Source: Paramacrobiotus metropolitanus
Lineage: Eukaryota; Tardigrada; Eutardigrada; Parachela; Macrobiotidae
Length of the DNA stretch: 64,000 bases
Direction of reading: 5' to 3'
NCBI RefSeq assembly: GCF_019649055.1
Contig: NW_026570235.1
Location: 186,001-250,000 of the forward strand
Shown here: positions 12,643-59,549 of the stretch, in pieces
Numbering within the stretch: position 1 is the stretch's first letter
How the letters are laid out: the number at the start of each line of letters is the position of its first letter
Translations under genes and position numbers: made by a program
Notes under the pieces: generated by a model
What the model saw: the letters and a program-made list of their open reading frames with translations, nothing else
What the model was told of the DNA's origin: nothing
The model's database searches: none

Positions 12643-14120
12643 TTACTCTTTACGAAGCTTAATTATTCTATCAAACTTTTTCAAATACCGCTGAGCAAAA
12701 CCATTCTCCACACTCAAAACAAACAAAACCGGCATCGCGTGCTCCACTACAAATTCCTTATGCCGCAGCACCTCCCGGACTTCCACACCGTTATCAATCT
12801 GATAGACACACATTTGTTTATCATCACAGAAGAAACACCGAGCCTGTTGGCTATCATATTCACGTGCCGTATCCCATTCGGGTGGATTATCATCCAGGAC
12901 CATCCGCAAAATCTCACCCCCTGTGCTCGTCTCGTCAACTTGCTCCAGAAAGTCCTGCTGATTGACTTCCGGAAACAGCAGCCGTATGGGCCACGCCAAG
13001 GCGCCATCGGGCAATAACGTAACCGACTGTCCCGACGGTGTCTTGGCTACTTGGTCGCCTTCGAACGGATTAGGCGGATGTAGACGAATGTTGCGGTCGG
13101 TAATGGCTTTCAAGAGATTGGCGTTTTGCTTGCCTTGTTTCTTCTGCTGCCGCTGTTTGAGCAGCTGCTTTTTCTCATCTCTCTGGACTGTTTTTCGCAG
13201 ATTAATCAGGGACTCATTCGTCGGGTCCAAAAGTAAGCCGCGATCAAGCCACTGGAGAGATTCGGAAAATTTACCGATGGCATGCAGAGCTTGCGCTCCT
13301 GCAACACGTAAAGAAAATTTCAATGTAACTCTTTGCTAATATTTTAGCGCTACTCACTGCCTGGCGTACATAATTAAGCAATCACAAAATTCATCTGTAT
13401 TTCTACGAAATAAATAATAATACTGGAAGAAAGTACAGGTAACTTAAAATTATTAATAACAGTTTCAACATTTGTGCAGCCTTTCAATAATCACCTGATA
13501 AACACCGGAAGTGCATAAAGTTTCCGAAAAATTTGAAACCACACACACACTGACACACTGGTGGTATCAAGTACAGTATGTATCAACTTTTTATCCTTAA
13601 AAGTTAAAACACAAACAATATCACTTTTTACTTGTGTAGTTCTAAGTTATGTTCCCAGTTTCTCAGCTAATCGATGAAAATTTAATCATCGATCAGGCGC
13701 AGTCTCCGTACCTTTCAGTACAGCTTTGACATAAGCGGGATCGAGCAGCAAAGCCGCTTCGCAGTCCGAGATGCACCTCCGATAATTTTTCATTTGATAA
13801 TGAGTAGCTGCGCGGTTAAAAAGCAGCACAGGTTTCAAATCCGTCTTTGTTATCTTCATCTCCAGCGCTTTCGTGTAACAAGCCAAGGCATCAGGGAATT
13901 TCTTTCTCTTGAAGTTGACATTTCCATCTTCTTTATAATTTTCAGCGCACTCATCCGGATCATCCTCGGAGTATTTGAGACTTTGTAGGGCTTCCACGAG
14001 CTCCGGCAGTTGGCCTTCGGGAACCTGCGTCATGAATGCAGGAATTTTCTCCATGTCCTCCAGGAAAGTGGACGGAGATAATCCTTGTTTGTATGTATAA
14101 GGTTTCGGTTCTTCCTCCAT
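12643..14120 (-). CDS. TTC4: Tetratricopeptide repeat protein 4 (TTC4/Cns1-type HSP90 cochaperone), 354 aa
   Basis: Two exons (minus): 14120-13712 and 13298-12643, joined in phase 1 to give 354 residues; human TTC4 is 387. Exon 1 holds the N-terminal leader and tandem TPR motifs (residues about 60-140) with the usual helix-turn-helix signature (NRAATHYQMKNYRRCISDCE). Exon 2 completes the TPR (ALHAIGKFSESLQWLDRGLLLDP) and continues through a basic Lys/Gln-rich helix into the C-terminal wheel-type domain. TTC4/Cns1 proteins bind HSP90/HSP70 C-termini through the TPR groove. The gene faces PSMD11 head to head, with about 800 bp between the start codons. Confidence 0.88.
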
Positions 14121-24117: not shown

Positions 24118-25930
24118 ACCGAAAATGAGCGGAAATATGACTCCAGACAGCGCGGATCAGCCCATTGTACTGTTGTGTGTGGCCAAAGATGTTTTTTTGT
24201 TATTCGTCTCCAGTCTTCATGCCAATTGTGTTTGAGACCCATCCATTGTGGCAACCGTGGAGAAGAGAACACAGTTCGAGAACAATCATCGTAATCACAA
24301 TCTTTTTTTTGCGATTTCCTCTTTCTCTGCTAATATCTATTTATATGATGACGAAAGTCGCTCTTAACGTGAAAATAATGCAGTAAAAAAGCCATCCTGT
24401 GTGTTTTTTTGTTTTCCGTTGGATAACACTTGTATAACACTTGACTGTTTGTATACTTGCTTGCATTTCGCAACACCACCCGCTTTTTAGCTAATCTTTT
24501 TTATGGACGAGCCCTTGATTCTTTTAACACTTTTTGGGATGATTATTGAAAAACGATCTGGCCGGTTAACGACTTTGTGAACCGCACGTCTTGTTGAATT
24601 AATAGGGAAGGGTGTTAAATTACTTGCTGGGTTATTCGGATTTGTTATTGCAGTATAGTACTGTAATTGATTATATCTATATTATTAATATTATTATGTT
24701 CATAACTTATAGCACCTACGTTCACTAATTTTGTTCATCGGTGTGAGATTACTGTACTTCATATTTATTGCACTGGCACTCAAACCTCCACATGCACATA
24801 CTCTTTAAAATTTTTGAATCGTACGAGCCTTATTTATCGTCTAAAAATTTTTGGTAAACGCAAATACTATGGTCATTTTTAATAACTATGGTGGTTATTG
24901 CTTATTAATTACTGGATAATGTATTTTTGTTTTTGTAAGTATTGTTCAAGTATCTCCGTAGTGTAGTTATTGTAAGTATCTCCGTAGGCGGCTGAGGCTG
25001 TGTATTCAGTACAAATTTTTTCATTTTTATAGGAAACTTGTGACTGTATCGTTACACTATCGTATCACCAATCTGAATAAAGGCATTCCACTCCAAAAAA
25101 AAACTACTGCTCAATGGTTATTGTAGTTATTGAGAAAATACTTTGCTACAAAGCAGTACGTATTGTTAATAATTAATGCACTGTTCGTACAGACGGTACA
25201 GTCTGCACTGATCGTGAATTATGGTAACAAGAGTAGAAGTGGGCTACATATAGTAGTACACAGTGTGTACTACACACTACACACTAAAAATAAATCGTGC
25301 TGTTTAATAAATTACTAAAAAATCTACTTCGGTAAAATGCTGAATTGAAATTTTGCTTTGCTATCCGGTAAGGTGAATGAAGATAAGACTAGTATGTACA
25401 AATTACAATAATGCCGTACAGAGCCAGTCTGTCCCAGAGGCCAGGTACAGTACAGTCAGCATTGTACAGCAATAGCATGTCTCCGTTCCGGGTTAGTAGA
25501 GAAACGAGCAAAGTACGCGATCATCCCCTGCCTGCCATAGCCACTTCTTTATGAGTGAGGCTCAGTGAGCTCATATACTCAGTGCGGTCACCCGCCGTTA
25601 CCGTCATCAGCTGCAGCTTTTTGTTTGGTTTGTCTTTCACCGTTTCACAGGCACTAATCTATTCTTCCCATCGCAGCTGGTATGCCGCGATTCGATTGCA
25701 CAGTTTGCATTTCGTACTCCACACGATCTCTAGTCTTCCTTGATCTGTCAGCATATGGTATTGGTTTCCATCGTTTCAGCTGAATTGTCATGGTAGAGTA
25801 ATAGAATCCCACCAACTCCCGCACTATGTAAACGATCAGCGTGCCATCGAAGGGAGCGGATGCTTTTGCCAGAGGCTCGGTTGTGTGGTGGCTCCGCTCT
25901 AACACAAAATTCTACACGCAACAATCAACA
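24118..25930. other. Right end of the duplication, then AT-rich intergenic DNA
   Basis: 24118-24603 mirrors the ARF1 3' flank (9205-9676). After about 24603 the similarity ends. 24604-25930 has no supported gene; it should hold the promoter and 5' leader of the zinc-finger gene. An in-frame ATG at 25841 upstream of the chosen start would add 30 residues. Confidence 0.5.
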
Positions 25931-28900
25931 ATGTCTTCCAAGAAACCAAAAACGACAGTGCCACCTGGCCCGACCACTACCAATGGTGTGGGAATAAAAC
26001 GGCTGAATCGTATGGCACCAATGCAGAAAGACCCGTTAACTGGTTGGAAGTGTCCGTTGTGCACGAATCAGCGGGAACTGGCACCCGAAACATGGCTCAA
26101 GCACATGGAAGCGCACGCTGCAGCCATGGTAAGAGAACTGCTTGTTTCATTTTCTGATGTTTGCTGTGGATACCGTTCGCGATGCACCCACTGCGCCTTA
26201 TCAGTATTCTGGATACGTTACTCGTGCAGTTTTTTGTGTGGAATTGATCGTGACTAGCATGAACGTTTATCGTTGCAGAAGCATGCTCCATCCACGGCAT
26301 CGGACGGGGCGAAATACATCAGCTCGTTGGCCTATGCCCGGATATTCTCCTTCTATTCGCGTGCACTGCGGGTGCGCCATACGCATCCACAATTCCAGGA
26401 ACTGGCCAAAAAGATTGCTACGGTCGCGGCCAAGTTTCGCCCCTTTGTTAACTGGAATGCAGTGCTTTCTAGGACGTCACGGCCCACCAGTGTGTCAGGT
26501 ATGAGGCCTATTTCAACAGGACGAGTATTGGGTAGAATAATGTCTGTAACATTATTGATTTTGGTTTTTATTTTCGCTGCAGTATTTACTTTTTAATTTG
26601 ATGCACGGTACTGTTCTACTATGCGTTTACGCACTAGACTTACGTCATGCCATCACGACTACCAACTACGTGATAAATTTTTCACAATCAGGCTGCTTCG
26701 TATACTCTGCAGTTCTTTTCATCTCGTAGCCGTAAACTTAATCGCCTAATTAAAAATGATTAATTAATAATCTTCTAAACAGAATTATTTGATTGATGAT
26801 TATTAAGAATTTTTATTTGTCAGTTATTTGTATGAGGCGCTGGCTGTCCCCAATGGAATTTATATAATACGGTATCTCCGCTTTTCGTTTGAATAAATTA
26901 TATAATTTTTATAAGTACATCGTGATGGAAATTCATATTTCATAACGCTCATTTTCAAACAGTTTCCGCTGGCGGCCGGACGATATCCATTGGCCCGAAA
27001 GTGTCTTCTCAAACCCAAGGATCTCATGCGAAAGACCACTCCCCGAATGTATCTGGATTGTCAGTAGACTCGTTTGCGGACGACGTTTGGAATGGTAAAA
27101 ACAAAGTTGTGGATACCGCTGCTGTAGAGAATCCATCGTCTGCTGCTGGCGACACGCATAAACGACTAGTGGAAAAGGAGGAGGTGTGGGCAGCCTTGGC
27201 CATTAACTCCCCGGTTCCCCGTTCGCCTCCAGAATTCCCGGGGGTCATGCCTGTGAATGCTGTTAATCATGCCATAACACTCAGCACCGTGGAATTCCAT
27301 ACTACTCAAGACATACTTATGGATATGAATATCAGCAAGTCAGCCACCGCTACCACTCATCAAGGACCGGTGATGCCGCAGCTTGTGTTGTCGCATATTA
27401 ACCTGCCTCCAGGTAAAAACAATGGTAATTTAAGTTCGAGATTTTATGAAATAATTTTGTTTATGTATTCTTCCATCGCTGATCTGTTTTGTAATTGTAA
27501 CCATAGCTGTTTTCTGTGACTGCGCGTATATACAGTAGACTGTTCACTGTTCACCGATTCTGAAATTTGCCGTTTATTGTTTACAGTACTGTTTATTGTA
27601 TTTTACGACAGCATTATGTCTTTCATTTTGTTAGTTATAATTATGACTGCACTTCGTAATACATTGGCGTGGTATCCGTGATGTTTAGTCCTCAAGGTTC
27701 TGTTTAGGAATATCGCGAGATATTTCGCTGAAGAGCTTTATTTGTCCTGAGATACCATTTATGATTGATTGATGAACTTTCTATAAAGTCGTTTATGGGT
27801 GTTGATTTGTTGTTACTAAAGAGTAGTCTGAAAATTAGCCGTCTGCAATATGAATATATGTATTAAGACGTTGTTATTTTAATTTGAATATATGTATTAA
27901 GACGGTGCCTGAATATATGTATTAAGACGTTGTTATTTTAATTTTAGATTCGGATACGGAAACTGTGCAGAGTGAGGAAAGGACTGAAAAGGTGATTGAC
28001 AGCAGCGCTGATCCAGTAGTTCCTGTTGCTCAAGAGATTATGCGCGATGATCTGATACCGAAGGATGCTTATATGGAGTGTGATGGAGTTGCTGTGAGTC
28101 ATGTTGGATCTCGTGGTGATAAGGATGTTGCTCAGCATGTTATGGACAATGCTCAACCTACTGCATTTACTGGAAAACAGTCATTCTCGCGGTATGGCCA
28201 ACGACGCCGCGGTTCGCGTGTTTCCGGGCGTGGAATCTCAACTGGCAGTAAGTTATCTTGAAGTTAATCTAAATGCCAGTGGGTTGGTCTGGTTTGGAAT
28301 ATAGAGATTACTAAATTGTTGACCGTTAAGATATAAAGTAAGAATGGAATAACTCGTACGGTAATTTCTGTCGGGTTCTGATATTAATGTTTGCTTTGTG
28401 TATCAGTAAATTCTTATGCAGCCCTAGCATGTCGCGAACATGCATTTGAGCCTAGGTTTGCAGCCGTTACACAGTCCAAATGTCAAATAACAGTTTTGGG
28501 AATGTAAATTGAAATAGTTTTGTTGAATTACTATAATTCTGTAGTTTTTTATTAGCGCAGATTCCCTGTTTATACGCACGAATTCGTTTTTGCCTAATAA
28601 AAATACACTTTTGCTCTAGTTCGCGGAGTGAAAACGCTGTATACATCGGGACTGCGCTATCGACGACGGTTCGGACTCAAACAACACAGTGTGCGCCGGA
28701 AAGGAAAACGGCGATTGCCGAAGACTGTGACTGCTCCCAAGTGTTCTACGGATGATTTATCGGGTGAGCTATTTTTTTCATTGAACACAATCGAATCTTG
28801 CTTGTCACGTTCTGTTTGTAAAGTTTTAGCCCAGGCCGCGATGTCGGACATGTCGTTTTCGGTGCTGGTTCTTCACGCTCCTGCACCATCGAAGATGATG

Positions 28901-31424
28901 CTCTTGAATCCGGATAGTGAAGGAGAAGAGCTGGAGTTTGTCCTTCGTGAAGGCGATGAACGCCAGGAGATCGCCTGCTTGGATAAAGAAATGCTGGAGT
29001 CCTACTTTAACCAGCGTGATGACAACACTTTCGAGTGCTTCCACTGCACGTTCACCACCCTGGACAAGTCGGACATATACTGTCACGCGGCCGACCACAT
29101 GCTGAATGCTGTGCGGGATTCAGTCAGTCTACCGGAAATACAACGTAATGTGCAGGCACCTTTTGGCGACTTTCCATCGGGTCGTGAAGTGGAATACGAC
29201 AACGGGTACGATTCGGAACCGGATTCGGACGCTTCCGATGCTGCCGATTCTCCCGCTATATCAACTCCGGAATCAGTGGCGACGGCGCGTGTGACGCGGA
29301 AACGCGGTCGTCCACGAAAAAATGCGTATGACGGTTATGTAATATTGTTCTGGTGACAATTTGACTGGTGATTTGGTTGGGTGTAGGTTGGCGAGTTCGG
29401 ATGCGTCGTTGACGTCTCTGGATGCGGGACCATCGGGATTGCAGTCTGAGTCACGCGATACATCGCGCTCAACCCGTTCCAGCTCCCTGTGTAGCGAGGA
29501 TAATTCGTCGATGGAGATGGATGATGAGAGAGTGCATACGCGGAGCAAACAGCCAAAATGTCCAGCGGGCGTTAAAGGAAACGGGAAGAAGACAAATGCG
29601 ACGCCGTATCACAACAGGTATGTACCTTTGATGGGTTCTGTCGGGTTTCTTGTGAAATTAACATGAGGGTTGGCTTTGGGGCACTTTCATGGGGCTTATG
29701 TGCGCTCGTGGTGGAAATGCAGTGGGCTTTGGGTGTTCTTACGATTATCGCATGACGCATGTTCATAGGTTCATAGCGTTTGCACTTACAAATTACAGTT
29801 ATTAAATTCAACACTGAAATGTAAACGACCAGGATTTCTCATTGCGTTGTTCCTTTCGTTATTCGTTGAATTTACCAGTAAGTAATTTCGTAAACTGTAA
29901 GCCATTGACTGCTGCCGTTGTTTGAATTTAGATTTTTGTAAGTTTTTGCTTTTGACGAATGGGGATGGGACGGACATTTTGTAGACATTCGTTGAGTTTT
30001 AATTTCCCTGCTGGTGGCTTGATACTAACAACGCATGCGGCATTTAACTAACCATGAGGCGTGAGCACTACATTTATACGGTTTGGGACACAGAACGATA
30101 TAGCATTCATGAATAGTTTCATCTTTTCTTTTGCATGATGATATACTCACATTGTTCCGGTCATGCATTGAAATTGCTAACAATAAGTAACTTACAAGAC
30201 TGCAAACGTAACATGCTATATTCTCAGGTCGCATGCCCTTTTATACCGCGTTAATGGATTCAGTCTGTACCAGTCGGAGTACTATAAGTCCCGTGATGGT
30301 GCCGCGCTGAGAGGCCTTGACAACCCCAACAGCGCCGTGGGCCTCATATGGAAACGGGAACCGGCCAGTGTCCGCGAGAAATGGTCGCGCCGGGCACAGC
30401 GACAGACGCGCCTGGTTAATGAAATCATGCACAAAAAGGGCTTCCGCCAGCCTTTCAAGGATTTGGCGGAGGATGAGAAAAGGATGCTAGTTAGCGCGGC
30501 ACTGCGTAAAATGAGAAAGGGCTCTTGGGCGACAGATGACAAACGGGGGTGAGTTGTCAGGTTTCTGGGCGGTATACAATATTTCACAAATGCTCCTCAG
30601 TACGGTGCTGGCGGTATTTCTTGGTACACTATTTTTTGGTACCTTTTGTTCTCCCTTTTTTATTCACTCAGATAATTTTGATACCGGTGGGTGGGTTTTC
30701 TTAAAAATTGTTTTTGTTTCTCTTTTTTTACTTTGTTTGTACGATTTCTTTCATGCTTTTTAAGATTTATTCTTCTGAAGTTTCTGAGCCTCCTGAACGT
30801 TGTGATTTCTCTAAACTGCACGGCATTTTTGTCATTTGCAGACAGTGCAACTGCATGATGCAAGCTGTAAAATTTGTATGAACTCCTGGCAGTGAGTTTA
30901 TGGTTTTGCACTGGGTGGTGATTTTGCTTGTATTATTGCTAGTCTAAGGTTTGCGTTGAGGCTGTCGACATTGTTTTCCGCTTTTCCGTACTTATTTTCC
31001 TGACGTAGTTTTTTCGGTTTGAAAAATAGTTCATTTACTAACGACTGCATAACATTCTCGTTTAAAATAAAGAGAAAGAGCCTGTCTGGCGTCGAGTAGG
31101 TTTAGGACTCCTGGAGGCGGGAAAGTAGGACATGGGAAAAAGAAGTATACGTGCAATGGATACGGAATGTTCGTACAGCACATTTCCCGTGGGATCTACG
31201 GATTCGGAATGCACATTAAACATGCTTCCGCACAATGGAATAGTATGTCAGCTGTTGCAAAGCAGAAATGGGTAAAAAAAGCTGAGCAGCGGGAGGCTAT
31301 GGTGCAGGAGATTATGGCCGAGCGCGGCATCCAGCAGCTGTGGAGAGAGGTTGATAAGAGCGAACAAAGGGATATCTTAAAGCAGGCTTCCCTAATGTTG
31401 GACCAGGAACGCTTGACTGATTAA
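25931..31424 (+). CDS. C2H2 zinc-finger, AT-hook and HMG-box-like protein (5' module plus cassette 1), about 892 aa
   Basis: Nine exons: 25931-26128, 26279-26498, 26963-27412, 27948-28247, 28620-28763, 28830-29325, 29387-29617, 30228-30548, 31106-31424 (31100 is an alternative last acceptor). The frame is kept throughout. Order: C2H2-like finger (KCPLC...HMEAH, residues about 40-62), a helical exon, a low-complexity Ser/Thr/Ala part, basic Arg-rich stretches, a second C2H2 finger (CFHC...HAADH), an AT-hook (KRGRPRK), a Ser/Arg linker, then two HMG-box-like domains, one per exon. These features suggest a nuclear chromatin or DNA-binding protein; the target is unknown. AATAAA at 32007-32012 gives this form its own 3' end. 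Three further exon sets downstream could replace the last three exons. Confidence 0.6.
27670..27757 (+). repeat. Dispersed about 90-bp repeat, copy 4 (intron of zinc-finger gene)
   Basis: TGGTATC/GATACCA ends, the CCTCAAGGTTCTGTTTAGG core and the inner palindrome GAATATCGCGAGATATTTC. It lies in the intron after the third exon. Confidence 0.7.
27851..27929 (+). repeat. Three copies of a 20-bp unit just upstream of a splice acceptor
   Basis: TGAATATATGTATTAAGACG occurs at 27851 and 27885, and as CTGAATATATGTATTAAGACG at 27909. The last copy ends 18 bp before the acceptor of exon 27948-28247. Confidence 0.8.
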
Positions 31425-32500
31425 GTTAGTAAAACAAATGTTAAAATTACAAATGTTTTAAGGTGAAATTATTTTCTTAATTAGTTTTGTGAAAGGTTGT
31501 CATTTTCGAACATATGGATTTTGGTTATGCTGATGAACTTGTTGATTGCTTTCAACTTTTACAGCCGTAGATGTGATATTCTCCAAACAGTTTTATTTTC
31601 TGAATGATTTTTTTATTGCTGGTAATGTGAATTACAGTTCTTTTACTTTTAATATAGGAAATTTTTGTTGGTTGGATTTACGGTGATAGCGAGATTTTAA
31701 TGAGTCCTATTTTTGGTTCTTGCAGGTGTGATGGAACCTTAATCACTTTCAGTACTTCTATTGTATTTGCTGTTTGAACAGGTTTTAAACATCGAAAATT
31801 TTATCGTGACTCAATTTTGGAAATGTTTTAAAGAACGTAATTTTGAATTCTCATGCGTGTAAACTGTAACGCGAACTGTTGCAATGTTTATTCAGATCGT
31901 ACAGTTTTTAATTGAATGTTATATTCCTGGGTGTGCACATGATTTTGAAGGGTTCCTTGATTTTCTAGTTAATGCCGTGAAATGAAATGCCCGATGTGAT
32001 TTTGTAAATAAAACTGCATTCATGGAAGTCTGGATTCGCTGCCTACCGAATGTCATCATATCAAACAAAATACACACAATTGCCAGTCAAAGGATGTGTA
32101 CAGTAGTGTACTCATCTGGTCTTCGATATGTATTGGACATTTTCGCTAGGGTAGATTGCTTCGCCAACCGGACACTCAGCTGTACATTCGTTCAGAAGTG
32201 AGAGAGCCGTCTCATTCATGGGATGAGACAGTTTCCGACTCAGGTCAGCCGCGCAATGGAATATAGCAAAATGTGAAATGGCTGAATCTTGAATGTTATA
32301 GCCCACTCACGTACAGCTGAGTGTCCGGTTCACGGAGCCGTAATGAAAGTATCGAAGAATGTCAAAGTATATTTAACCTTAATCCACAGACGTAATGCTA
32401 ACTCGTTTAAACATTCCGTCCAACAGAAGTAACCCTTCCGTGTGTCTGTGTGTGAACGTGCTTGTGATTGTGGTTGCATTGCGTGCTTACCTGTTTGCAG
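31425..32500. other. Gap between cassettes 1 and 2
   Basis: AT-rich, no ORF supported. It holds the 3' UTR of cassette 1 with AATAAA at 32007-32012. Confidence 0.5.
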
Positions 32501-35500
32501 ATCGCAGTTGTCTACGCCAACCAACCGAGCGGGATCATCTGGTTCACGAGGAATGCCGGTGTCACGGGAAACATCCGTAGCGCGCTCCACCCGTTCGCAG
32601 GCGGTGCGAAAACATGAAGCGGTCCCGATCAAGGTGGAGCCGGAAGACGAAGTGGAAACTGGCCGGAAGCCACTGAAACGAAAAGCGGATGGCAGAGGAA
32701 TCGGGAAGAAGAAACTGGCCACACCCAGCGAAAAGTAAGCAACTAAAATACTGCATGGTATTCTGGGTGGTGGACTGCTCTAGGTGGGATTCTATTTTTC
32801 GCTCGCGGAATGTGCTTGTCGATGCTTCTGTGTACTCGCCGGCTTGGCAACTTTGCATATGGATGTGTTTGGCGATGTCCTGCATTCGCGTGTCGTAATC
32901 CCGAATCGAGTGGTGAATTTTTAAGATTCGATTTTAAGTTAGCTAATCTTAAATTTTTTTTCAGTGCATTATTTACATTTTTTTTAAATTTTGGGCGGAC
33001 AGTTAAGCCTAGCGCAGTAGCACCATAGTAGTTTCGAATATTTCTTTGTTACTAAACACAGTAAATGCAGTGTTTTCGAAGCTTCTTTAGTTTACAATTG
33101 CATATATATGTGTTATGTGTTAATTGTATTTATATGTGAATTTTTGTATCCCAAGATTTTTGCGCTCTCGAGGCTGTTTGCATGTGAAGGATGTAAATTA
33201 ATTGCCAGATTCTAGAGTGATCATAGCAGTTCTAATTGCAAATTCTGAGGTACATAGTATCCATAACTCCAACAGTATACGTGTGACCGTTCATTTTAAG
33301 TTTTGTAAAAGTTTCTGTCTCATGCGAATGGTAAAAGGGTGTTAGGTGGCGGAGCTAGACTCACAATACAAATACCGCAGCTTGTGTATTGTGCAGCGCT
33401 ACTTGCTTTCATTGACTGTATGAACGCTTTTTCCATGAGATTCTTTATTTTCTTGCAACCAGGGAATACGATAAAATGAGTCCATTCATTAACAAATGGA
33501 AATACAAATAAATTACACTACAAATGTGTCGCGCATGCGATTATTACGCCGCCATGAGCGTAATACATCATTGTGCGTATTCTCAGGTTAGATGGCCAGT
33601 TGTACTACATTAGCGGATACAATTTATACCAATCGGAGTACTACAAACATTTCCGCGATACTGATGTCCTGAACGACTACGACAACCCCGGGAAAGCGTT
33701 GGGCGACCGTTGGAAGCAAGAAGAGGAGCGTTTCCGGGAGAAATGGCGACAACGTGCGCAACGCCAGACGGCCTACGTTAATGAGATCATGCAGGAGCAG
33801 GGTTATCGGGCCTTTAAGGATCTGACGGAAGTTGAGAGAGACATGTTGATTAGTGCGGCGCGCAGTAGGATGAGGGAGGGCACACGGGCTGGGGATGAGA
33901 AAGCGGGGTGAGTGTGATTTTGGGGAACTGTGTGTACAGCGCTGCATCTGCTGCATGGGTTGGCAGTTGTTTTGAATGCGGATGGGTTTGCTCGTTTTTG
34001 AGTTGTACGCACGTTTGCCCGCTAATGGTTTTCGGGTTTAAATATTTCTGCTTTTTCATACAAAATTTGCTCAGTGATATCCTCTATGAGTATGATATGT
34101 TTTTATGCAGTTGCTTTTGAATACAGATTGGTTTCCCATTTTTATGTGTTGTTGTATTATGCATGTATACGTTTACCGCTAAAAAGTTTCTTGGTTTAAA
34201 AATTTGTGTTTTTGACTTGGAAATTTTGCCTTCATATTTTTGGGCATACTTTTTTTCATACTTTTTTATGGATTGTTATCTGTGATTGATTTGCAAGATG
34301 GCTTGCTGCTATCTGGACATTGTTGGTGTGTTGTTGATAGTTCTGTTGATTTTGTTTTTAGTTGATTTCCGCACTAAATACTTATGAGGAAAATCGAAAT
34401 TTCCTAAGTACAAAGTAATTTTTGTGCGAAGTAAAACGAGTGATTCTCCGTTGCGTGTATCATTCCCGGTATAAAAACAGTTGCTCCAAAACGTCTAGCA
34501 CCCGTGGTATATGCAGCGGTGGATTCCCTTTCGATCCGGCGTGACTTCGTTTCAGTGTGAATTTCAGCACGTTTCTGCAACAAAGTGTAGTTAGACATTT
34601 AAGCGCGAGCATAAGCCTCTCGGGCGTTGAGTACAGGCACCGTGGGAAACGGGAGCATCGACGGCCAGGACGGGATTATCATTGTGTTGGATACAGTGCG
34701 TATGTACGGTATGTGGCCAGGACGGGGGAAAAGTTTAAAGGGAAGGGCGGGATGCTGAAGGCAATCCGTACGCACTGGAATGCCATGCCGGACGCCGAGA
34801 AGCAGTCGTGGGAAGCCAAAGCGAAACAACGGGAGGCCCTGGTCGCTTCGATTATGGCACAGCGCGATATTCGGAAGAAATGGACACAAGTATCTTGCGA
34901 GGAGCGGAAGGATATTATCCAACGGGCTGACCAGATGACGGAGCAAATCCAGGCACACTTTGGAGGTATGATACAAATCCGGTGAAATTTGTTCGTGTTT
35001 CAGAATTCGCTACAGTTTATTGTTTTCATTCACTGCTGTATAATGTTTTTGCTGTAGTAGACGACATCCATTTATCCGCATTTGAAATTATAAGTAAAAG
35101 TTAGTTGTGTAGAAATACGCACAAATAAGATACGTTGATTATTTATTTGTGCATATCAAACTCCATGTAAGTATGTACTTGTTGAAGTTGACCTTGATTG
35201 CGTCACTCTCGAAGTCCGATTATCCTGTTTTGTTATTGTCGATTTCCTCAACAAATACCATTCTCCCTAATTCATATCTTTAACAGCGAATATCAGGGCT
35301 AGAATAATAATTGAAAAGCAAAGTTAAGGTGCAGTAAATACTTTTATTAAAAATTTCCATATGGAGCATTTTGTGTTTGATGATGGATTCAGTATGCAAA
35401 TTCGGAAATCTTGTACATACAGACAAACCAATCTTGCATGGGTGAATGCAGCGACTTTGCATGTGTTTGCAACTTTCCTTTTGTGACTGAAATTCTTTTT

Positions 35501-35573
35501 TATCGTTCTTTCAGGTGACGCCGTTGCCGACTCGCCGGTGATGGATGATTTGCAGTCTACATTGTGCCTTTAA
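32501..35573 (+). CDS. Alternative C-terminal cassette 2 (linker, two HMG-box-like exons, tail)
   Basis: Exons 32501-32734, 33587-33907, 34637-34965 and 35515-35573. They are paralogous one by one to the last three exons of the 25931-31424 gene, with an added short tail exon. The linker exon repeats the SRETSVARSTRSQ motif. The first HMG-like exon has GYNLYQSEYYK and EKWRQRAQRQTAYVNEIM; the second has CVGYSAYV and HWNAMPDAEKQSWEAKAKQR. The acceptor is phase 2, matching the donor at 29325, and the joined length keeps the frame to a TAA at 35571-35573. No start codon exon is seen in the 1.08 kb upstream. Therefore I read it as an alternative 3' cassette, though an independent gene with an unseen first exon is possible. 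Confidence 0.5.
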
Positions 35574-36053
35574 CAATCCTCTTTTGTTTTTACTATTGTG
35601 TACTGTACTGTTCCAGATTGCCACTTTACATATAATATGATCTAAATTTTTTGGTTAATTGGATCATCCAATTTGGATGTACATATGACTTTCGTCCTTT
35701 TTTAACCCTCGGTGAGATAGAAAGGTTTTACTTTGCTTTGCTTTCGGTGCCAGATATCGAGCAGTACACGTAGTAAAGACGGTTTAGGAAATGCTGCGCC
35801 ATGTAAAACAGCGTTAAAAAACATGATCACCCATAAAATATGGAAAACAGTTACTTATTACTAATGTTAGAGACGTGTATGATATTTTCGCCAGCTTTTT
35901 CCTTTCATACTTTAATTTGGAATGGTTCTGTCGGCATGGGCATGATTCTGATATGTGTTTCCCTGCATGCATGTATGATTGACCGGTGGCGGGGGCGAAA
36001 AACCCTGGCTTATATAGCCGTGTAGATGTGTGAATTGTGGACTGTCTTGAAAG

Positions 36054-36623
36054 GGATGCCGGCATTGATGACTTCCATCTGACCGGGTGCCAGTTGTTCG
36101 TCCAGCAGTTTATGGCGGTGGACTGTAAGGATAAACCGCGGGATCCGCTGACGGTGTGGCGCAGCTTCACGCCCCTCCAGCAGCGGCAGTGGAATGCCGA
36201 AGCCATGGAGAAGGTGTGCGCGGTGCACAAGATTATGCGCGATCAACGCTGCAATGTGCCCTTCCGCCAGCTGCGGCGCACCCTCAAGCGGCATATTCTC
36301 ATGACGGCGGATCTGTGCTTGGCGGACGGGACCCATTTCAACAAGCTAAAGCTGACCAATGCTGACGTTTTTGAAGGTAAATATTTAGCCGTACTAATAA
36401 ATATGTGATTTTGAGTAATAAATTAGTAATGTAATTCAGTAATTTAATTTAAATATTTGTTTTAATTCACATAAATTAATAATTTAGTCAAATAATTTTG
36501 TTTTGAATGCTTAATTGAATTCTGCGGTTTTTTTCATCCACAGAGTCGTCGAATTCCACGGAAGAGTCGACGGATGAGGATACGCCGGTGATTGCGAATC
36601 CGTTACTGATGCGAGCCGGCTGA
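36054..36623 (+). CDS. Alternative C-terminal cassette 3 (one HMG-box-like exon plus acidic tail)
   Basis: Exons 36054-36376 and 36544-36623 (TGA at 36621-36623). The HMG-like exon reads GCQLFVQQF ... VWRSFTPLQQRQWNAEAMEK and is the counterpart of the second HMG-like exons of cassettes 1 and 2. The short last exon is Ser/Glu-rich (STEESTDEDTP). Entry phase 2 and internal phase 1 match the other cassettes. I found no linker or first HMG-like exon for this set. The acceptor at 36053 has a weak polypyrimidine tract. ATTAAA at 36785-36790 may serve as poly(A) signal. Confidence 0.45.
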
Positions 36624-37126
36624 GTCGTTCCGTTAAACGGTTTTAACGTATTTTGTGTTCCTTTCTCTCTCATATCGCACCGTTAAAAAGTTCATTTTTC
36701 TTTGCGTGTCTTGTTAATTCTCTTGTCGCTCAATTTTGCAAGCCTGCGATTTTTTTACTTAATTTTTTGTGCTAATTACTAATAATTAAAGCTGCGAAAT
36801 TGTTTTGCGCTGATTTGTTATTTTTTCTAATCAGTGAATTTTGTGAGATAGTTGTGACGAATCTGTGGAAAATGTTATTAAAAAAATAACCGCGATCAGT
36901 TTCGGGAAATTATGCACATAGTCGATGCGCGAACAATCGCCATTTTAGTATTTGGTGCACTGGAATTAGTAGTCTTTCTACAGACAAACACCTTGAAAGG
37001 TCAGTCAACGATATTGGCCCACATGTTATATCGTAAAAGTTGAATTATGCATAAGTACTCAACTGTACTTGTATCGATGTTATTCGGATTTGCACCGGTG
37101 CTGATAGTTATACTTCGCGATTCCAG

Positions 37127-38370
37127 AGTGCAGGTGACTAGTCCGAGGTGGCGAGAAGTGTCAGGATCGCTGCAGCCGGATATCTGTATGGAGGCTATGG
37201 ATCTGGATTCGGATGCGGAAATGGAGGGGCACGAGCGACCGGATTGGGAGCCGGTGCAGAAAAAAGCCAAGAAACCCCGTCGGCGGTGTACGAAACAGTA
37301 AGCATCCATTAGTATCTGTGTATCGCATCCATTAGTATCTGTGGTATCGCATAGCAGGATCGGATGATATGTTTTATGTTGCTGGTTGTATTACAATGGA
37401 AAATATACGGTCAGCTACGTTTTTAAAAAAACACACTGCGCGATTTAATTCGATTTTTGTATTAATTGTGGCTAGGTGGTAAGTAATCAAAAAATGACTG
37501 TAATAAAAATTCAAAACTATTAAGTACGTACTACGTCGTAACACCCGTAACAATTACGGATTTTAATAATTGCCGGCTTTTTAGAGCCACTTAGCCACTT
37601 TTTTAGGTCACTTTTTGAGCCACTTTTTTACGTCCATTAGCTACAGTCTGACAGATAGTCTTAAGCCATACCGAAAATTTATTTCGTAATGGTTTTGTTT
37701 GGACCGTGTGATTAAATGTTAACTGGTGTTGTTTCTAATGAATTAATACTTATCCGGTGATCGTGAATTTCTCCTGGACCACAATCAACTTGCGAATTGC
37801 AGGAAAGAGGAAAGTAAACCTGTGAGCCGGAAAGGACAGGGTAACTACAGTTGCAACGGATACGGCCTGTTTGTCGGATATATTTACGAGGTCATGGTTA
37901 AGAAGCCAGGCCTACAAAACACTCAAAGCGCCGCCGACCTGTGGAAAGCCATGTCGGAGACGGAGCAGCAGCGCTGGAAGCAGAAGGCGGACCACCGGAA
38001 AGCGGCAGTGAAGGAGCTGATGAAACAGCGCGGTACTAAGCGCTTCTGGTCGGCGCTGAGCAAGGAGGAACAACGGGACATCTTGGCTGCGGTCTACAAG
38101 ATGGAGAGTGAGGCGACATTCGACCGGAACGAGTCGGAAGGTAGATTGTCTGATGAAAATATTAACTTATACTGTACATTCATTATACATACAGCATACT
38201 TGTACTCTGCATTACATCTACCTAAACACCGGCAAAAACAGACATTGTATTGTACATTAAATTGTATCAAATAATAAATAATGCGTTGCATTCAGTAATG
38301 TGTTGTATTGTATTAATTAATAAATGAGAGGAAATTGGAAAGGATACTTTTTTCAGTGTCGCTTAAATGA
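37127..38370 (+). CDS. Alternative C-terminal cassette 4 (acidic/basic linker, one HMG-box-like exon, tiny tail)
   Basis: Exons 37127-37297, 37803-38140 and 38357-38370. The linker exon is acidic, then strongly basic (KKAKKPRRR). The HMG-like exon has CNGYGLFVGYI and LWKAMSETEQQRWKQKAD, the clearest match to an HMG-box pattern (helix 1 aromatic pair, helix 2 W-K-x-M/L-S, then basic helix 3). The last exon adds four residues and a stop. Entry phase 2 and exit phase 1 equal the other cassettes. The type-1 HMG-like exon is missing here. AATAAA at 39040-39045 lies downstream. It is probably the most distal alternative end of the 25931 gene. Confidence 0.5.
37301..37350. repeat. Tandem duplicate of a roughly 24-bp unit
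   Basis: GCATCCATTAGTATCTGTG-TATC occurs twice in direct succession right after the donor at 37298. Confidence 0.8.
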
Positions 38371-40090
38371 AGTTCAAGTTTCTTCTGGAAGTGAGTCGAG
38401 TATTTATTTGCGTAATTTATCTGAGCAATGTCTGTAAAATTACGTGGTAATTATTTGGTTTAGTATCAAACAGGGCATAACCCTGAAATTGTGGATTTGC
38501 CTTTAACCGCAGTTATTAATGTTTTCTCTAAACAACATCTGGTATTTCTGATAATCACACGTAATACCGTTTTTTTGCAGAATCCCCGTGTGCGATTGAT
38601 TGTTGAATCTGCGGATTACTTACTCGTTGTATTTATTTGATGACTAATTTTGTGATGTTCAATAAGCTGCGGTATTCCTATAGATTAACCAGATTTGCGG
38701 ATAACTGTTTCACCATGTTTTTAATGTTGCAGGATTTATTTTTTTATTGTTTTCTGACCCTTGCGATACTGGATGCATCTAGTGCATGGGATAATGTGAT
38801 GTTAAGATGCACTTTGCTTTATTAGAATTTTTTTATAACCTTATCGGTATTTCGTGTCCATCTTAATGTCGGTTAATTAATCGTTTTCAGCATTTTTGTA
38901 TTAGTGCCTTTGCCCACCACTAATGGTATGATCTGTTTTTATCTGTGTTTGTTGGTGTAGATCGGAGTAGATCCCCTAGAGGCTTGTTTTGTTGTTGACG
39001 ACTGTGGTAAAAGTACTTAACTACTTAGTGAATAATGTGAATAAAACCCTACTAACTGATTCCCGATTGGAAATGCGACTGCGTTAATTTTAGTGAATAC
39101 AGTCACAATTATTCAGCACGAATGCACTCGTATATGTGCTCGTGTATTACTTATTTATATCTTTTATTTGCGTGCACCGGAAAAATATGGGATATTTAAT
39201 TATCCATGTTAGGTGATCGTGTTAAGAAAACCGCTGCAACGGAAACGCGTTCGTTCTTTGCATGGTGTAAAGTGTACATAGATTAGCCAAATCATACGAG
39301 TATCAACCACGCCCGGCGGGCTAAAGGTCACCGGAAAGATTTGACGACGACGATATGATTCCAGGATGTGTCGTGTTTACAGCATGTACTATATTTAGTG
39401 AAAGAACTGCGAATTGAAGAAAGGCTAAAATTACAGACGAGCACCCGAATAATTCATGCATACAGAAAGGATCAATTACTGAGGGTGTGCATTCGAAGCG
39501 GCTGCCGGCATTCTTCGAAAACATTCAAATTGTGCGTCATTAACCTGATCAACACAATAACAAGCTGCGCCCACGTTTCCTGCAGATGACCCGATTTTCC
39601 GGTTTCTTGAGTGTTTATGCCCGCCAGGATGTGATAGATTTTCAATACTTCAACATCAAAAGAAACGTGCACATGCATATGCACTAAAAAATCTTTTTCA
39701 ACATCCCGTTAGAAGATGCAGGATACTCATATTTGGTCAGCCTGTGAACTGCAGAACAGTTGTGTATATTGCAGTTTATTACACTAAATATGTATTAATA
39801 GTACATTGTTCGTTATGCGTATATTATGCATTTATTTATTATAATAAATATGTACTTCTACGTGGTAACTTAAAATGTATTAATTTTTTTCTGTTATATA
39901 ACGACATAATTATGATATGTATGGCACACCGCCGCACACCCAATAAAGCAACAATTTAATTGAATTGGCAAGCGTAGTTTCACACATGCAGATCCATCAG
40001 TATTGGAGGATCTGAACGAGCATACTGCAAATAAATCGATACAGCGACCTTTCAAAATACTGACAGGAAAAACCAGCTGAACATATATTC
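38371..40090. other. Intergenic, no gene seen
   Basis: AT-rich with only short ORFs and no splice-supported exon. Confidence 0.5.
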
Positions 40091-51392: not shown

Positions 51393-52272
51393 GTGCTCCA
51401 GCATTTCGTGTACTTTAAAATTATTGCCTTGAATTATAAGCCGAAGTACATACACAGACTTTGCTTAACAAGGGGTACATGTGCACATGGCCCAAAGTTT
51501 TACCAGAACAGCAGTTCCATCGAAAAGGCAACAAGAAATACGCTTCCTTGTTAATCGTATAAAGCTGCACTAAAGTCGATTGTCTGGATTTACCCATTGC
51601 TAGGCTAGAGGCAACTTTTTGACTAATTTAATTACGCAGAATATTCATTTTGCTTAAGGGCTATCACAAGGAAGTAAAAACATTATTCCGACCATCCTTT
51701 CCGTAACAAATTGTGCATTCAGAGCTGTTATAGCATAACTCACATAAAGAAAATTGATGTGCACAGCGCTTTTTCTGAAAACTTTTTAGGTTCTGGCACA
51801 ATGTTTATGAGTAATATTGGATATACGTTAGCAGTTTTAAATGTTAAATGCTTATGTTTGCCGAAACATTGCTGTTTCGGTGTCAAGCGGTGTGATACAC
51901 AGATAATACTGCATTTTCAAGAATACATTTTGGCAAAATTGTCTTGCTGTTAAAATTTCGTTCTAAACTGAATTACACATAAAGCTGAACGGTTACAGCT
52001 CCGAAAGCGTTATTAAATGTGTCAGGTCATGGAAACACAAAGTTTCAAATCCGAAGAGCTTGCCGGAACTGTTGCAGTATTGGAACTAAACGGGACAACC
52101 ATTCCGCGGTGGAGTTCAGTGCAGTATACAGCAACATCGATGTCCCTGGCTGCTGACTTGCCGGCTGCTCCGTAGAAGCTGAAAAGCGTAATCATATGCG
52201 TTAAAGTGTATGTACGAGTACATATCGTGGTGCAAATACATGTATCCATAAATGCTTTGGATATTTAATAAT
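51393..52272. other. Spacer between ectodomain genes A and B
   Basis: No further gene supported. On the minus strand an open stretch (52022-52160) follows a possible donor in B's last exon and could be an alternative terminal exon. Confidence 0.4.
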
Positions 52273-55174
52273 TTATGTGGACCAAGCTTTTAGCTTCAAC
52301 CCACCATCCAGAACTGTGCATCCATCATTCGTCCCACCGGAATCGCATTTCAAAGGTCCCTCTTTTACAGGCATACGTGCTCGCTTATTTGGCCAAACAA
52401 TCTGCCGGACACTGCCACCCACGGGGTCCCGACTTGACCGGAATTGTTGGTCCCGAGCGGAGTATTCCATGACGGGCTGTACACAAACTTCAGGAGTTGA
52501 TAAGCTGTTACCAAATAGTGCAACCTTTTGTGCTGCAAGCAGTGCTTGCTAAATTTGCCGCAAAGACAAGATCTGCATTGCAAATAGCTGTGTAGTGTGT
52601 ACTTACTCTGTACCTATTCTAGATATTGCGCATAACACTCGTAACGCTTAACTAGCTAAACATACCATAAAATTTCCAGCCGAGTCCATTTGACTGACGA
52701 CCCAGTCCACAGTCCGATCTCCGTTGGCGTTGATGACAATCTCGTTTCCTAATATCGTATACGAACGGTTCCACATTAACTTGCATAGTGCCGCTCCATC
52801 GCTGAGATTGCCGCCATTTGTTAGCGTCTCGTTCAGAACCTATTCAATTTAATTATTGCGACTAACGGGTGGGTTATGTCAATGTGCAAAGAGATTACTA
52901 GTATTCAAAAAAATTCAGGACCTTCTTGCAGCAATTGAAATATCTTCGCTGTAGAATTAATAACTGGATAGTGATACTCGTATTATGCATATCACGGAAG
53001 CGCAACTTACCTGACCAAAGATAGCCAGCGTGTAATAGTATGACATCACAAATGGATCGACCTTGTAGAACCAGAACAACAAAACATTATGTTATGACTT
53101 ACGATGTTACAAAATCCAAAATTTATTTTATATTTGGTATTTAACTTTATATTCTGTTCTTACCTCTTGTTTTGGCCAAATAGCGCCGTGCTGTTTGTCG
53201 GATAATATAGATTTCTTGACTTCGCCGGTAAGATTCCAAAATTCTGGTGTGTCTTCGGAACGCGTTGAGATAGTGAAAAGCGAACTGAATGCGTTTTGAG
53301 CATCCTAAAAAGAAAAGAGTGAAACTGTCTTAAAGCTCCCGCTTTCTAAGGCAGAACGTCAGCTAGCTTCTGTGGAATAATAAATCCTTTTCGGAAGAAA
53401 ACCTTTAAAAGCGCCATTCTAACTAAACTTGCCGCATTTCGTTCGGGTTCGGTTTTCGAAAACCAGGTAACGTTGCCGAAAAGGTTTGTGTCGTGCCAAG
53501 GTTGCACCGTGAAGTACAGCTAGATAAAGCACACCATGAACTCTTTGTTTTAATTTTTGCAGTTAAGCGCATGATCTCGTGACAGAAATTTATAATGGAT
53601 AAGCTGGTTGACGATGTGCGAACTCACATATTCGGCCCCGGTCAAACCCTGATCTAATGCAGCTAGCTGTGAAAATCAGAAAAGTAACAATTATTGTTGA
53701 TTTACTCTCTTGTTAATCGAACAATTTCGTATCAAAGTTTGCGGCTTACCATGACTGCTCGAACCCGGTCGCCAGGGATCGCCAGGAAAATGACTAAATA
53801 AAAAAATGAATAATTGTGTATTTATTGTCATTAATTTTTTCAAAATTTAGTATAAAGACGTAAAATATAAAGGGATGTGCTTATCAGCATTAAGCTGCAT
53901 GCTTTCTGAACACAATAACTTTAGCCGTTTAGTACTTTAAAGTTCAAACAGCATTATGAATCGGATGGCTACAAAGCGCAACGAAATAAAATTTGTGACG
54001 ACCGAGCAACAGCGTAAGTTTTATCGATTCATTCATGAGAAGAAGGTTAGCTTTAGTTCTCTTAATTCTTATCGAATGATTTAACCAGTGTACGGTGTCT
54101 GGCGATACCTTTTGCGATCGCGCTGGCTTTTGTAAGGGTTTGTCGAACTGCCAACGTGTTGGTGGTGTTGACATTAAACGAAGTCGCACTGATTCTATAC
54201 CAATCGCTTAGGCCATATTTCAGCGCAAGACACGTGGACAGAGTAAAGCGTCTCTGACGATTTTCGCGGTCATAATCATCATCACACAGCACTGCCACCG
54301 GACATGTCGTACAGTTGAACTTCGTTAACACGTTGTATATAAACTTTATCATTTCGCGATCGTCAAACGGAGCAATCCGTGTTAACGTAGAATAATCACT
54401 CCTCTTGTCGTTCTCTCGAACCGAAAAATGTATGCTACAAAGAGCGTAAATAAAGCGATTTGCGAGTGAATGCATTTATCTGGTAGAATAAATGTGTTTT
54501 GGCACAAAGTGACACTTTTACTTACGATGGGCTGAATACCGGGATATTCCATTCTATAGGAAATGGTATATAGAGAACCAGCATGCCATCACTACACATT
54601 TCTGAATCTTCTTACCTTTAGCCATGTAGCTTATGGTTTTGGATGTCGATAAACAAATCTCTACAAACGGATCTTGATAATTCAGTGTAAACACATACAG
54701 AGTACAGTAACTGCAACGGCTAATTCTGATTATGTTGAACTAAGCTGCAGTGTTCGACAAAAGGTCGAAAAGGATACATTCGTGATTACAATTTTTCTGT
54801 ACGAACAGATCAATCTGCATTGAAGAAGGGCAACTTTTACCTGGTGCGATTATCGCCAGCCCGGAAATGTCCGGTTCTTTACGCCTGTAGTAAAACTCAC
54901 TAATCCAAGCTACCGCATCTGTTTCCAATTCCTCGCAGTACAGCATGGGATTGCGATTGAGTGTGGTAATCCTTAGCCGTGTTAGATTCAGCTGGGTCCA
55001 GTAGCTGGTTCCTAAATGTTCTGCCGCTATATCCAGAACATGATTAAATGCTCCACTGCCGGAACCAGAATATTCTAACACAAGGATTTTCGCCTGAGCT
55101 GTCGACGATGAGAAACCGGTAAAAAGAAAAATCCATACAACAAGACGTAACGATGATCTGCGATAGGATTCCAT
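52273..55174 (-). CDS. Receptor ligand-binding-domain protein B (natriuretic-receptor-like ectodomain), 490 aa
   Basis: Eleven exons (minus): 55174-54841, 54660-54616, 54553-54526, 54434-54109, 53793-53750, 53666-53628, 53519-53433, 53304-53164, 53061-53011, 52839-52666, 52476-52273. Phases equal those of A and C. The signal peptide (RRSSLRLVVWIFLFTG) is followed by the bilobed ligand-binding fold (LAIIAPG, WNIPVFSPS, YSTLTRIAPF, VLCDDDYD, VIFLAIPGDRVRAVM, NGDRTVDWVVSQMDS). The last exon has VWPNKRA and a Cys pair, matching the segment just outside the membrane in receptor guanylate cyclases. It then stops without a TM helix. An alternative splice to 52160-52026 would also lack a TM. Confidence 0.78.
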
Positions 55175-55813
55175 TTAATCCAGCACTTTATAAACTTGAA
55201 ACGTATTACCCCTAATCGAAATGCTAGTACCCTAACAACTCGCCTAATATTATTAGAGATTTATATTCGCTTATGAGCGCAGGTCTTATCGGTACGGTAA
55301 TTCCGTTGACACGTATATAATACCCTTTCCTCCTGATCGTATATGGCTGCATTAAACTCGCTCATCTGGATTTAGCCATTGCGATGCTAGAGGCAACTGT
55401 CTGACTATATAACTCAATAACGCGGATTATGCATTTTGCTGAAGGGTGTCTTACACGGAAGTAAAGACAATATTCCATCCATTTTTTTGTAATACATTTT
55501 CCTGTGCTGGTTTCAGTATAATCCGTGTGAAGATTTTCTTGTATGAGTTTTGTCTTTTCAGGCAAGTTTCATGAATTGTAAACCGGAAAAGGCCTTTAAT
55601 TGCTTTTACTGCGGTACCGCAAATAAAGGTCAAGTGAATATATGCGCAAAAAATTTTCACTGGGAACTTCAAAAACATCGGATCTATGTGCTCGACACGA
55701 TTCGACAGAAACGTAGAATGCCATGCCGCCACCTTGGCGTGACCAGGGTGTGTTACGTTCTTATGATCGCTTTTGAAACTACAGAATTACCGCTTAGCAG
55801 CAATACTTCAGAA

Positions 55814-58377: not shown

Positions 58378-59549
58378 ATTGGTGTTGTATAAAATTTCGT
58401 ATGAAATGCGGCATCAAATAATTAACACATTTTCTTACTTACAATGTCATACGGTGGCAGAAATCGGCAATGTTCATTTGGCATTAGTTGGCTCACTAAT
58501 ACTGTGACAATATTCTGGTTTGCTATTTGCCCGTAGGTAAAGCTTAAATACCGAATATAGTACCTTACTGAATATTCATGTTTCTAGGAACAGACGGATA
58601 TTCGTGCCACTCCGTATGAGGAAGCAGGCATGACTGACAGATATAATTATGTTTTCTCTAATACCGTCTAGAAAAGATTTGCTAAAGCGTATCGTTACGT
58701 TTACAGAAACTTTCGCATTTATATTCCACTACCTCCTTCGGTACTTTCAAGCTGAATTCGTCAATGAGGAAAATAATTATGAGGAATTACGGTGGTATCC
58801 TTTTAGTCCTATACTAATTTTTTAATCCAGTTGAAAACGAAATGCAGAAACAACGCTGAAAGAGCTAAGACTTTACTAAAGTATTTAAAACATGCAATAT
58901 TGCTAGTTTGTTTAGCCTGTATAACTGGTTGCCGCACTACGCACTATTCTTAACCTTTTCAAATGCGGGATCGATAGCAAGTTATCGACATGGCAGTTTG
59001 CTTTGTATGTAAAAACAGCGTCGTTCTAGCGTACAGAAGCTAATTGGTAAGTTGGTAACTAATCAATTTTATGATTTCTTTTAAATACCCTTCTGTTGTG
59101 ACGCGGTACGTGGTCTCATTAATTAATCAATTTCTGTATTCAGGGAGTGCATGGGAGTGCATGGGAGTGCCATACATGTCTCCGCTTTCACTGGCTTTTT
59201 AATTTCCACCAGCAATTTCTTGACATAAATAAGTAACTTATTTCGTCTGGGTACTCAGCTGTTATTAAGATACCCAAGATACCCAAGGCGCAAATTAGCA
59301 GAATGCTTGAGTATGTAATCGATAGAGCTACCACAACATACCCAACGGAATAAGAAAGTTCACAGAATAGTAGCTCCCAGATTACATCCGACAGCAACCC
59401 CTTATGTGGCACGGAAACAGTTGTTTTACGTTTCTTAGAAGATGTAGACAATCCCGATTCCAGAGAACATTCCCAAGCCAGCGCTGAATATTAGCGTCAG
59501 TTACAAAGGTAATAATTGTAGTGACCTTTGAAGCGCGTATCTGTACAGA
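58378..59549. other. Intergenic interval with a short 10-bp tandem repeat
   Basis: GGGAGTGCAT is repeated three times near 59143-59171. A minus-strand open frame 59188-59451 encodes one or two hydrophobic segments but has no ATG; it may be an exon or chance. Confidence 0.4.

Follow-up and report, generated by a model that had tools for sequence, protein, structure and literature searches.

Among the systems compared here, two insect genes come closest to a layout in which one N-terminal part is combined with alternative C-terminal ends. In Drosophila, lola is expressed as 20 isoforms, 17 of which carry different C2H2 fingers (PMC11426971). The second gene, mod(mdg4), has a constitutive front and gives rise to more than 30 isoforms by means of alternative 3′ ends; in Drosophila, independent promoters drive transcription of these 3′ exons, which are trans-spliced (PMC12692577). 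The monarch butterfly combines several 3′ exons, and homologues spliced in cis are described for other insects and for Daphnia (PMC4667647). The TTK-type BTB domain of those genes was reportedly not found outside arthropods (PMC11426971). Among HMG-box genes, TCF7L2 undergoes alternative splicing near the C-terminus (PMC2747626). No description of alternative HMG-box 3′ ends of the kind discussed below was found among the titles and beginnings of abstracts listed in the literature searches. In TCF/LEF genes, the HMG box itself is shared and the tails vary.

A comparable arrangement is predicted for a locus of the tardigrade Paramacrobiotus metropolitanus, studied in a window of 64,000 nucleotides (contig NW_026570235.1, positions 186,001 to 250,000; coordinates below are those of the window). 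A sequence-only reading of this DNA had proposed one N-terminus with interchangeable HMG-box-like ends, in the layout of lola or mod(mdg4). We consider it moderately probable that the locus forms a single transcription unit whose HMG-like C-termini are alternatives, a judgement that rests on exon anatomy. The likeness to lola would lie in the common 5′ part and in the multiple 3′ ends that alter the C-terminal DNA-binding domain (PMC11426971), although here the distal joins are predicted; likewise, the one front and the many alternative 3′ ends shared with mod(mdg4) are predicted from sequence in the tardigrade. In lola, a BTB front is combined with C2H2 ends, whereas the present locus has HMG-like ends in four sets only, and no BTB domain was detected in its 5′ module by Pfam searches with the six exons singly (the sixth from residue 8 on). 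In flies, mod(mdg4) differs by its BTB front, FLYWCH ends, trans-splicing and 3′ exons that lie in part on the opposite strand; the tardigrade exons lie on one strand, and Pfam searches with six modules and three linkers found neither C2H2 nor FLYWCH domains in the alternative ends. The frames and phases of all four predicted joins fit the proposed layout. As neither a BTB front nor C2H2 or FLYWCH ends were detected, the locus is not filed as a member of either type; in the proposed reading it would operate in the manner of lola or mod(mdg4). In having two consecutive boxes, sets 1 and 2 recall HMGB1. The boxes nevertheless differ from those of HMGB and SSRP1 by scoring below the Pfam cut-off, by an additional long helix in the models and by the C2H2-like/AT-hook front, and the locus differs from TCF7L2 and TCF/LEF genes in that entire HMG-like modules are the alternatives.

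The 5′ module comprises six exons on the plus strand between 25931 and 29325 (E1, 25931-26128; E2, 26279-26498; E3, 26963-27412; E4, 27948-28247; E5, 28620-28763; E6, 28830-29325), with bounds re-derived from the sequence. They begin with an ATG, remain open over 602 full codons and end in phase 2, and the coding score of this frame is the top one of six in each of the six exons. Two C2H2-like motifs are present, C-x2-C-x13-H-x3-H in E1 and C-x2-C-x12-H-x3-H in E6, and an AT-hook immediately precedes the donor at 29325; the Pfam matches to AT_hook (E 0.02) and zf-C2H2_7 (E 0.08) are both under the cut-off. A search of the 169.8-Mb genome (533 contigs) found no copy of E6 outside the locus, nor is there one beside the later sets. 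The intron between E3 and E4 holds a short direct repeat (27851-27944), composed of two identical 35-nt copies and one 71% copy.

Downstream of this module, on the same strand, lie four exon sets that each start in phase 2. Set 1 comprises the linker exon L1 (29387-29617, phase 2 to 2), the HMG-like module A1 (30228-30548, phase 2 to 2) and the HMG-like module B1 (31100-31424), which contains the stop codon. Set 2 is made up of the linker exon L2 (32501-32734, phase 2 to 2), the modules A2 (33587-33907, phase 2 to 2) and B2 (34637-34965, phase 2 to 1) and a tail exon with a stop, T2 (35515-35573). Set 3 holds the most divergent module, A3 (36054-36376, phase 2 to 1), followed by an acidic tail exon with a stop, T3 (36544-36623). 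Finally, set 4 consists of a linker-like exon L4 (37127-37297, phase 2 to 2), the module B4 (37803-38140, phase 2 to 1) and a putative, doubtful last exon of 14 nt with a stop, T4 (38357-38370), recognized by its frame and splice-site letters only; read-through past the B4 donor would instead reach a stop after 134 nt. The six HMG-like modules are therefore unequally spread, with a pair in each of sets 1 and 2 and a single module in each of sets 3 and 4. The latter two sets do not form one two-box set at the mapped sites, as A3 ends in phase 1 and both L4 and B4 start in phase 2. When 29325 is joined to each set, the frame is kept in four out of four cases with a single terminal stop, giving proteins of 894, 916, 736 and 776 aa for sets 1 to 4. 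The phase-2 donor, the phase-2 acceptors, the separate stops and the in-frame joins of the earlier reading were thus recovered with re-derived exon bounds. Frame agreement is not independent support for joining, because duplicated exons carry phase 2 along.

The set exons carry a coding signal. With codon tables trained on three other ORFs in addition to the 5′ module, the assigned frame is the best of six in all 11 set exons scored (the 14-nt T4 being left out), in L2 by 0.01 over an antisense frame. All of them except B1 exceed the 99th percentile (0.30) of a null of stop-free 26-codon windows, and B1 (0.22) exceeds the 95th (0.11). A second scoring, trained solely outside the locus, again places the assigned frame first, or ties it with the antisense frame for L2, with B1 low at 0.08. 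Comparison of related exons gives a dN of 0.354 and a dS of 1.563 for A1/A2 (dN/dS about 0.23), 0.631 and 1.792 for B1/B2, 0.898 and 1.875 for B2/B4, and 0.618 and 0.926 for L1/L2 (dN/dS 0.67). Pairs with A3 (dN 0.93 to 1.39) are uninformative, and dS is undefined for B1/B4. In a simulation of neutral decay at 0.75 substitutions per site, which started from the present sequence and used substitutions only, 0.5% to 8% of exons remained stop-free (six exons).

The HMG-like modules are paralogous. In tblastn comparisons, A1 and A2 share 55% identity, B1 and B2 38%, B1 and B4 39%, and A1 and B4 30%. The most distant module is A3, with a best E of 3.4e-4 to B1 and 0.29 to A2; it scores nearer to the B profile (25.4 bits) than to the A profile (13.8 bits), so that an A-type module is not supported, and "A3" is a label only. 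The linkers L1 and L2 are related as well (tblastn E about 1e-4), while L4 gives no significant match to L1/L2 (0.2 bits, E 0.65). The proposal that all sets are paralogous hence holds for the HMG-like exons and for L1/L2, but kinship is not established for L4 and the tails. When the spans of sets 1 and 2 are compared by blastn, four matches appear, all between corresponding exons and none intronic; one is strong (the A exons) and three reach E 0.11 only. No seventh module was seen outside the array at E < 0.09 in tblastn searches of the 64-kb window with the nine set modules and linkers. In the 169.8-Mb genome, the queries were E6, A2, B1 and A3, with A1, B2, B4, the linkers and E1-E5 left out; the three modules among them (of six) matched the array only.

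The proposed search of the cassette exons against the Pfam HMG_box profile (PF00505) did not bear out their identity by that measure, as none of the six modules reaches the curated cut-off of 25.4 bits: A2 scores highest (22.5 bits, E 1.6e-4), followed by B4 (18.8), B2 (16.6), B1 (16) and A1 (12.1), and A3 has no match. The array is absent from the 39 HMG_box matches in the genome, and modules below the cut-off could be overlooked by routine annotation. More distant comparisons point toward the HMG fold. A profile of the six modules ranks HMGB1 first among PDB entries (E 0.0047), with SSRP1 at E 0.0067, and its weaker matches include unrelated proteins, e.g., S100-A9 at E 0.024. The HMG core consists of three helices. 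AlphaFold2 models built from the six-row alignment (mean pLDDT 82.2 for A2 and 74.5 for B1) show helices in the expected order, followed by one further long helix at the end. In Foldseek, HMG boxes make up 36 of 40 matches for A2, with no E-value below 0.85, and 45 of the best 50 of 69 matches for B1, at E 0.85 or worse. VIA gives a best Z of 6.2 for A2 and 6.3 for B1, each with 67 aligned residues and an rmsd of 3.8, below the level that the tool calls distinctive; unrelated chains reach Z 5.5 for A2 and first appear at rank 49 (Z 4.7) for B1. The term HMG-box-like therefore finds favour in the predicted folds, without significance, but not in Pfam. The modules are probably divergent HMG boxes with an extension.

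The splice sites are less uniform than the phases. The donor at 29325 is the weakest of 14 scored, at rank 0.72 versus at least 0.92 for the others. A second phase-2 donor within E6, at 29205, scores 5.98 versus 0.46 for 29325, and its use would remove 40 codons including the AT-hook. The phase-2 donors of L1 (29617) and A1 (30548) reach 8.69 and 7.42 in leave-one-out scoring. The training set for the splice scores amounts to 13 sites, taken from the same gene model. Ranked among 713 AG sites, the acceptors of sets 1, 2 and 4 stand at 0.964, 0.958 and 0.811, and that of set 3 at 0.475; among the other 13 acceptors, scored by leave-one-out, two lie below the latter (0.173 and 0.446) and one is about equal (0.498). 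The first intron, from 29325 to 29387, measures 61 nt, and joining to set 1 should therefore be the default. In view of this short intron and of the stronger donors at 29617 and 30548, skipping that starts from L1 or A1 and leads to a later module is no less likely than a direct join from 29325. As a shared donor, 29325 thus fits in phase and frame, but better phase-2 donors exist at 29205, 29617 and 30548.

From the sequence, the best-supported and most economical reading appears to be one 5′ module whose HMG-like 3′ ends are interchangeable. According to this model, the 5′ module would be spliced in cis to one of several 3′ sets, each contributing one or two HMG-like modules and its own stop. 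The resulting isoforms would have the N-terminus in common and differ in a C-terminal part that probably binds DNA or chromatin. We infer that distal joins are used, that the modules bind DNA and that the choice among the joins would be set by which phase-2 acceptor is paired with which phase-2 donor (29325, 29205, 29617 or 30548), and also by whether transcript cleavage occurs ahead of the following set. The reading is favoured because the four frames are intact, the coding score is best or tied in all 11 scored set exons and the modules are paralogous. Moreover, the matches between sets 1 and 2 are exonic only, the dN/dS of A1/A2 and B1/B2 speaks for it, and no further copy of E6, A2, B1 or A3 was found outside the array. 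The candidate private starts of sets 2 and 4 discussed below score non-coding, and the similarity of A3 to the other modules begins upstream of the first ATG in set 3, which also counts in its favour. It is weakened by the donor at 29325, by the acceptor rank of set 3, by the short intron favouring set 1, by poly(A) hexamers at chance level, by a start-exon candidate for set 2, and by dN/dS values that are uninformative for A3 and B1/B4 and amount to 0.67 for L1/L2. On the whole, the idea of one N-terminus with interchangeable HMG-like ends is carried by anatomy and frames, but the joins from 29325 are not favoured over those from other donors.

The main rival is a row of tandem genes, in which the 5′ module is continued by set 1 alone and sets 2-4 are duplicates with their own promoters and their own first exons or internal ATGs. 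The weak donor at 29325 suits this explanation, and so do several possible starts, in view of which the claim that the later sets have no visible start exon was too strong. In the gap before set 2, an exon candidate at 32022-32197 begins with an ATG and ends in a good phase-2 donor; a candidate of at least 30 codons arose in this gap in 3% of 500 Markov resamples, and chance would not be a comfortable account of it. A second, shorter candidate lies at 31700-31725. The weak candidate before set 3 (35953-35972) spans six codons with a weaker donor, and no start candidate in that gap exceeds the donor threshold. In set 4, in-frame ATGs at 37047 and 37077 are open through the acceptor, and L2 and L4 contain internal ATGs. 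However, the 32022-32197 candidate scores non-coding with both training sets (-0.21 and -0.13, against the null mean of -0.24) and partly coincides with an arm of a strong hairpin, and the set 4 stretch scores non-coding as well (-0.09 and -0.26), which disfavours private starts at 32022 and 37047. The open frames begin upstream of the first internal ATG, as does the module similarity of set 3, and a copy of E6 is absent from the later sets. The later sets may still have non-coding first exons or internal starts, and the tandem arrangement is kept as a possible, if rather unlikely, explanation.

Poly(A) signals do not help to define separate ends. Three of the four sets had been credited with a nearby AATAAA or ATTAAA, but the numbers of these hexamers after the stops of sets 1-4 (1, 0, 2 and 1 observed versus 1.51, 0.59, 0.91 and 1.28 expected) are at chance level, and set 2 has none before set 3.

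Trans-splicing of the kind known for Drosophila mod(mdg4), which likewise joins one front to many ends (PMC12692577), would make sets 2-4 separate transcripts that have their own promoters and are joined in trans to the 5′ module. As the 3′ exons of mod(mdg4) have independent promoters (PMC12692577), own promoters for sets 2-4 would be compatible with such a mechanism. All sets nevertheless lie on the same strand, at most 9.1 kb from the donor, where cis-splicing suffices, and we regard this explanation as improbable. Still less probable is that exon skipping yields long proteins containing three or four of the HMG-like modules, e.g., L1-A1 followed by L2-A2-B2, in place of mutually exclusive ends. 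The exons L1, A1, L2, A2 and L4 are in phase 2 at both ends, the mapped exons permit 116 in-frame cis paths and both the L1 and the A1 donor have high scores; the stop in B1, however, requires that this exon be skipped. That sets 2-4 are decaying duplicates, i.e., pseudogene exons without function, is hardly credible, for apart from the low-ranked A3 acceptor and the doubtful T4 the exons retain open frames, splice sites, coding composition and the A1/A2 dN/dS, and few simulated exons stay stop-free under neutral decay.

Under the preferred reading of one transcription unit, a more far-reaching view can be put forward tentatively: the locus would be a generator of diversity like lola and mod(mdg4) with a BTB-independent origin, in which a C2H2-like/AT-hook front is combined with a private, fast-diverging family of HMG-like modules with an added helix, and phase-2 exons are combinable into isoforms with one to four boxes. 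This is less likely than the single transcription unit itself, though conceivable. If the distal joins are used, alternative DNA-binding C-termini arose with a front and a domain class unlike those of the insect BTB genes, and the whole arrangement occupies 12 kb of a single strand, a distance over which splicing in cis would be enough. It could then be asked at this locus how a transcript selects one of several duplicated 3′ ends, and whether genes of this type generally arise by the duplication of exons.

The hairpin between sets 1 and 2 is formed by an inverted repeat at 32158-32338 on the plus strand, with 28-nt arms (32158-32185 and 32311-32338) that are 89% complementary and lie 124 to 343 nt upstream of the set 2 acceptor region. 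The RNA fold of 32140-32360 has an energy of -86.4 kcal/mol (z -6.85), and Rfam gives no match in 25000-40000. A genome search found the repeat in a single place, which speaks against a repeat family, although such a search is no proof of rarity. The inverted repeat may represent a foldback element or a structured RNA lying between the two sets.

Other features of the window and the genome were recorded alongside. A minus-strand exon at 12646-13335 encodes a Cns1/TTC4 Wheel domain (Pfam PF18972, E 3.7e-16), and a gene for a rhodopsin-family receptor was also recognized, as fits an animal. Between 50291 and 58413, two kinds of minus-strand ORFs occur about three times each (at 50291, 54062 and 57248, and at 51006, 54740 and 57979); judged by eye from the ORF list, they look like a tandem gene family. 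Elsewhere in the genome, six HMG_box half-matches lie on the minus strand of contig C159, within 10556-55842, and peptides from 51500-58500 on this contig appear TCF/LEF-like by eye; this is possibly a second HMG array.
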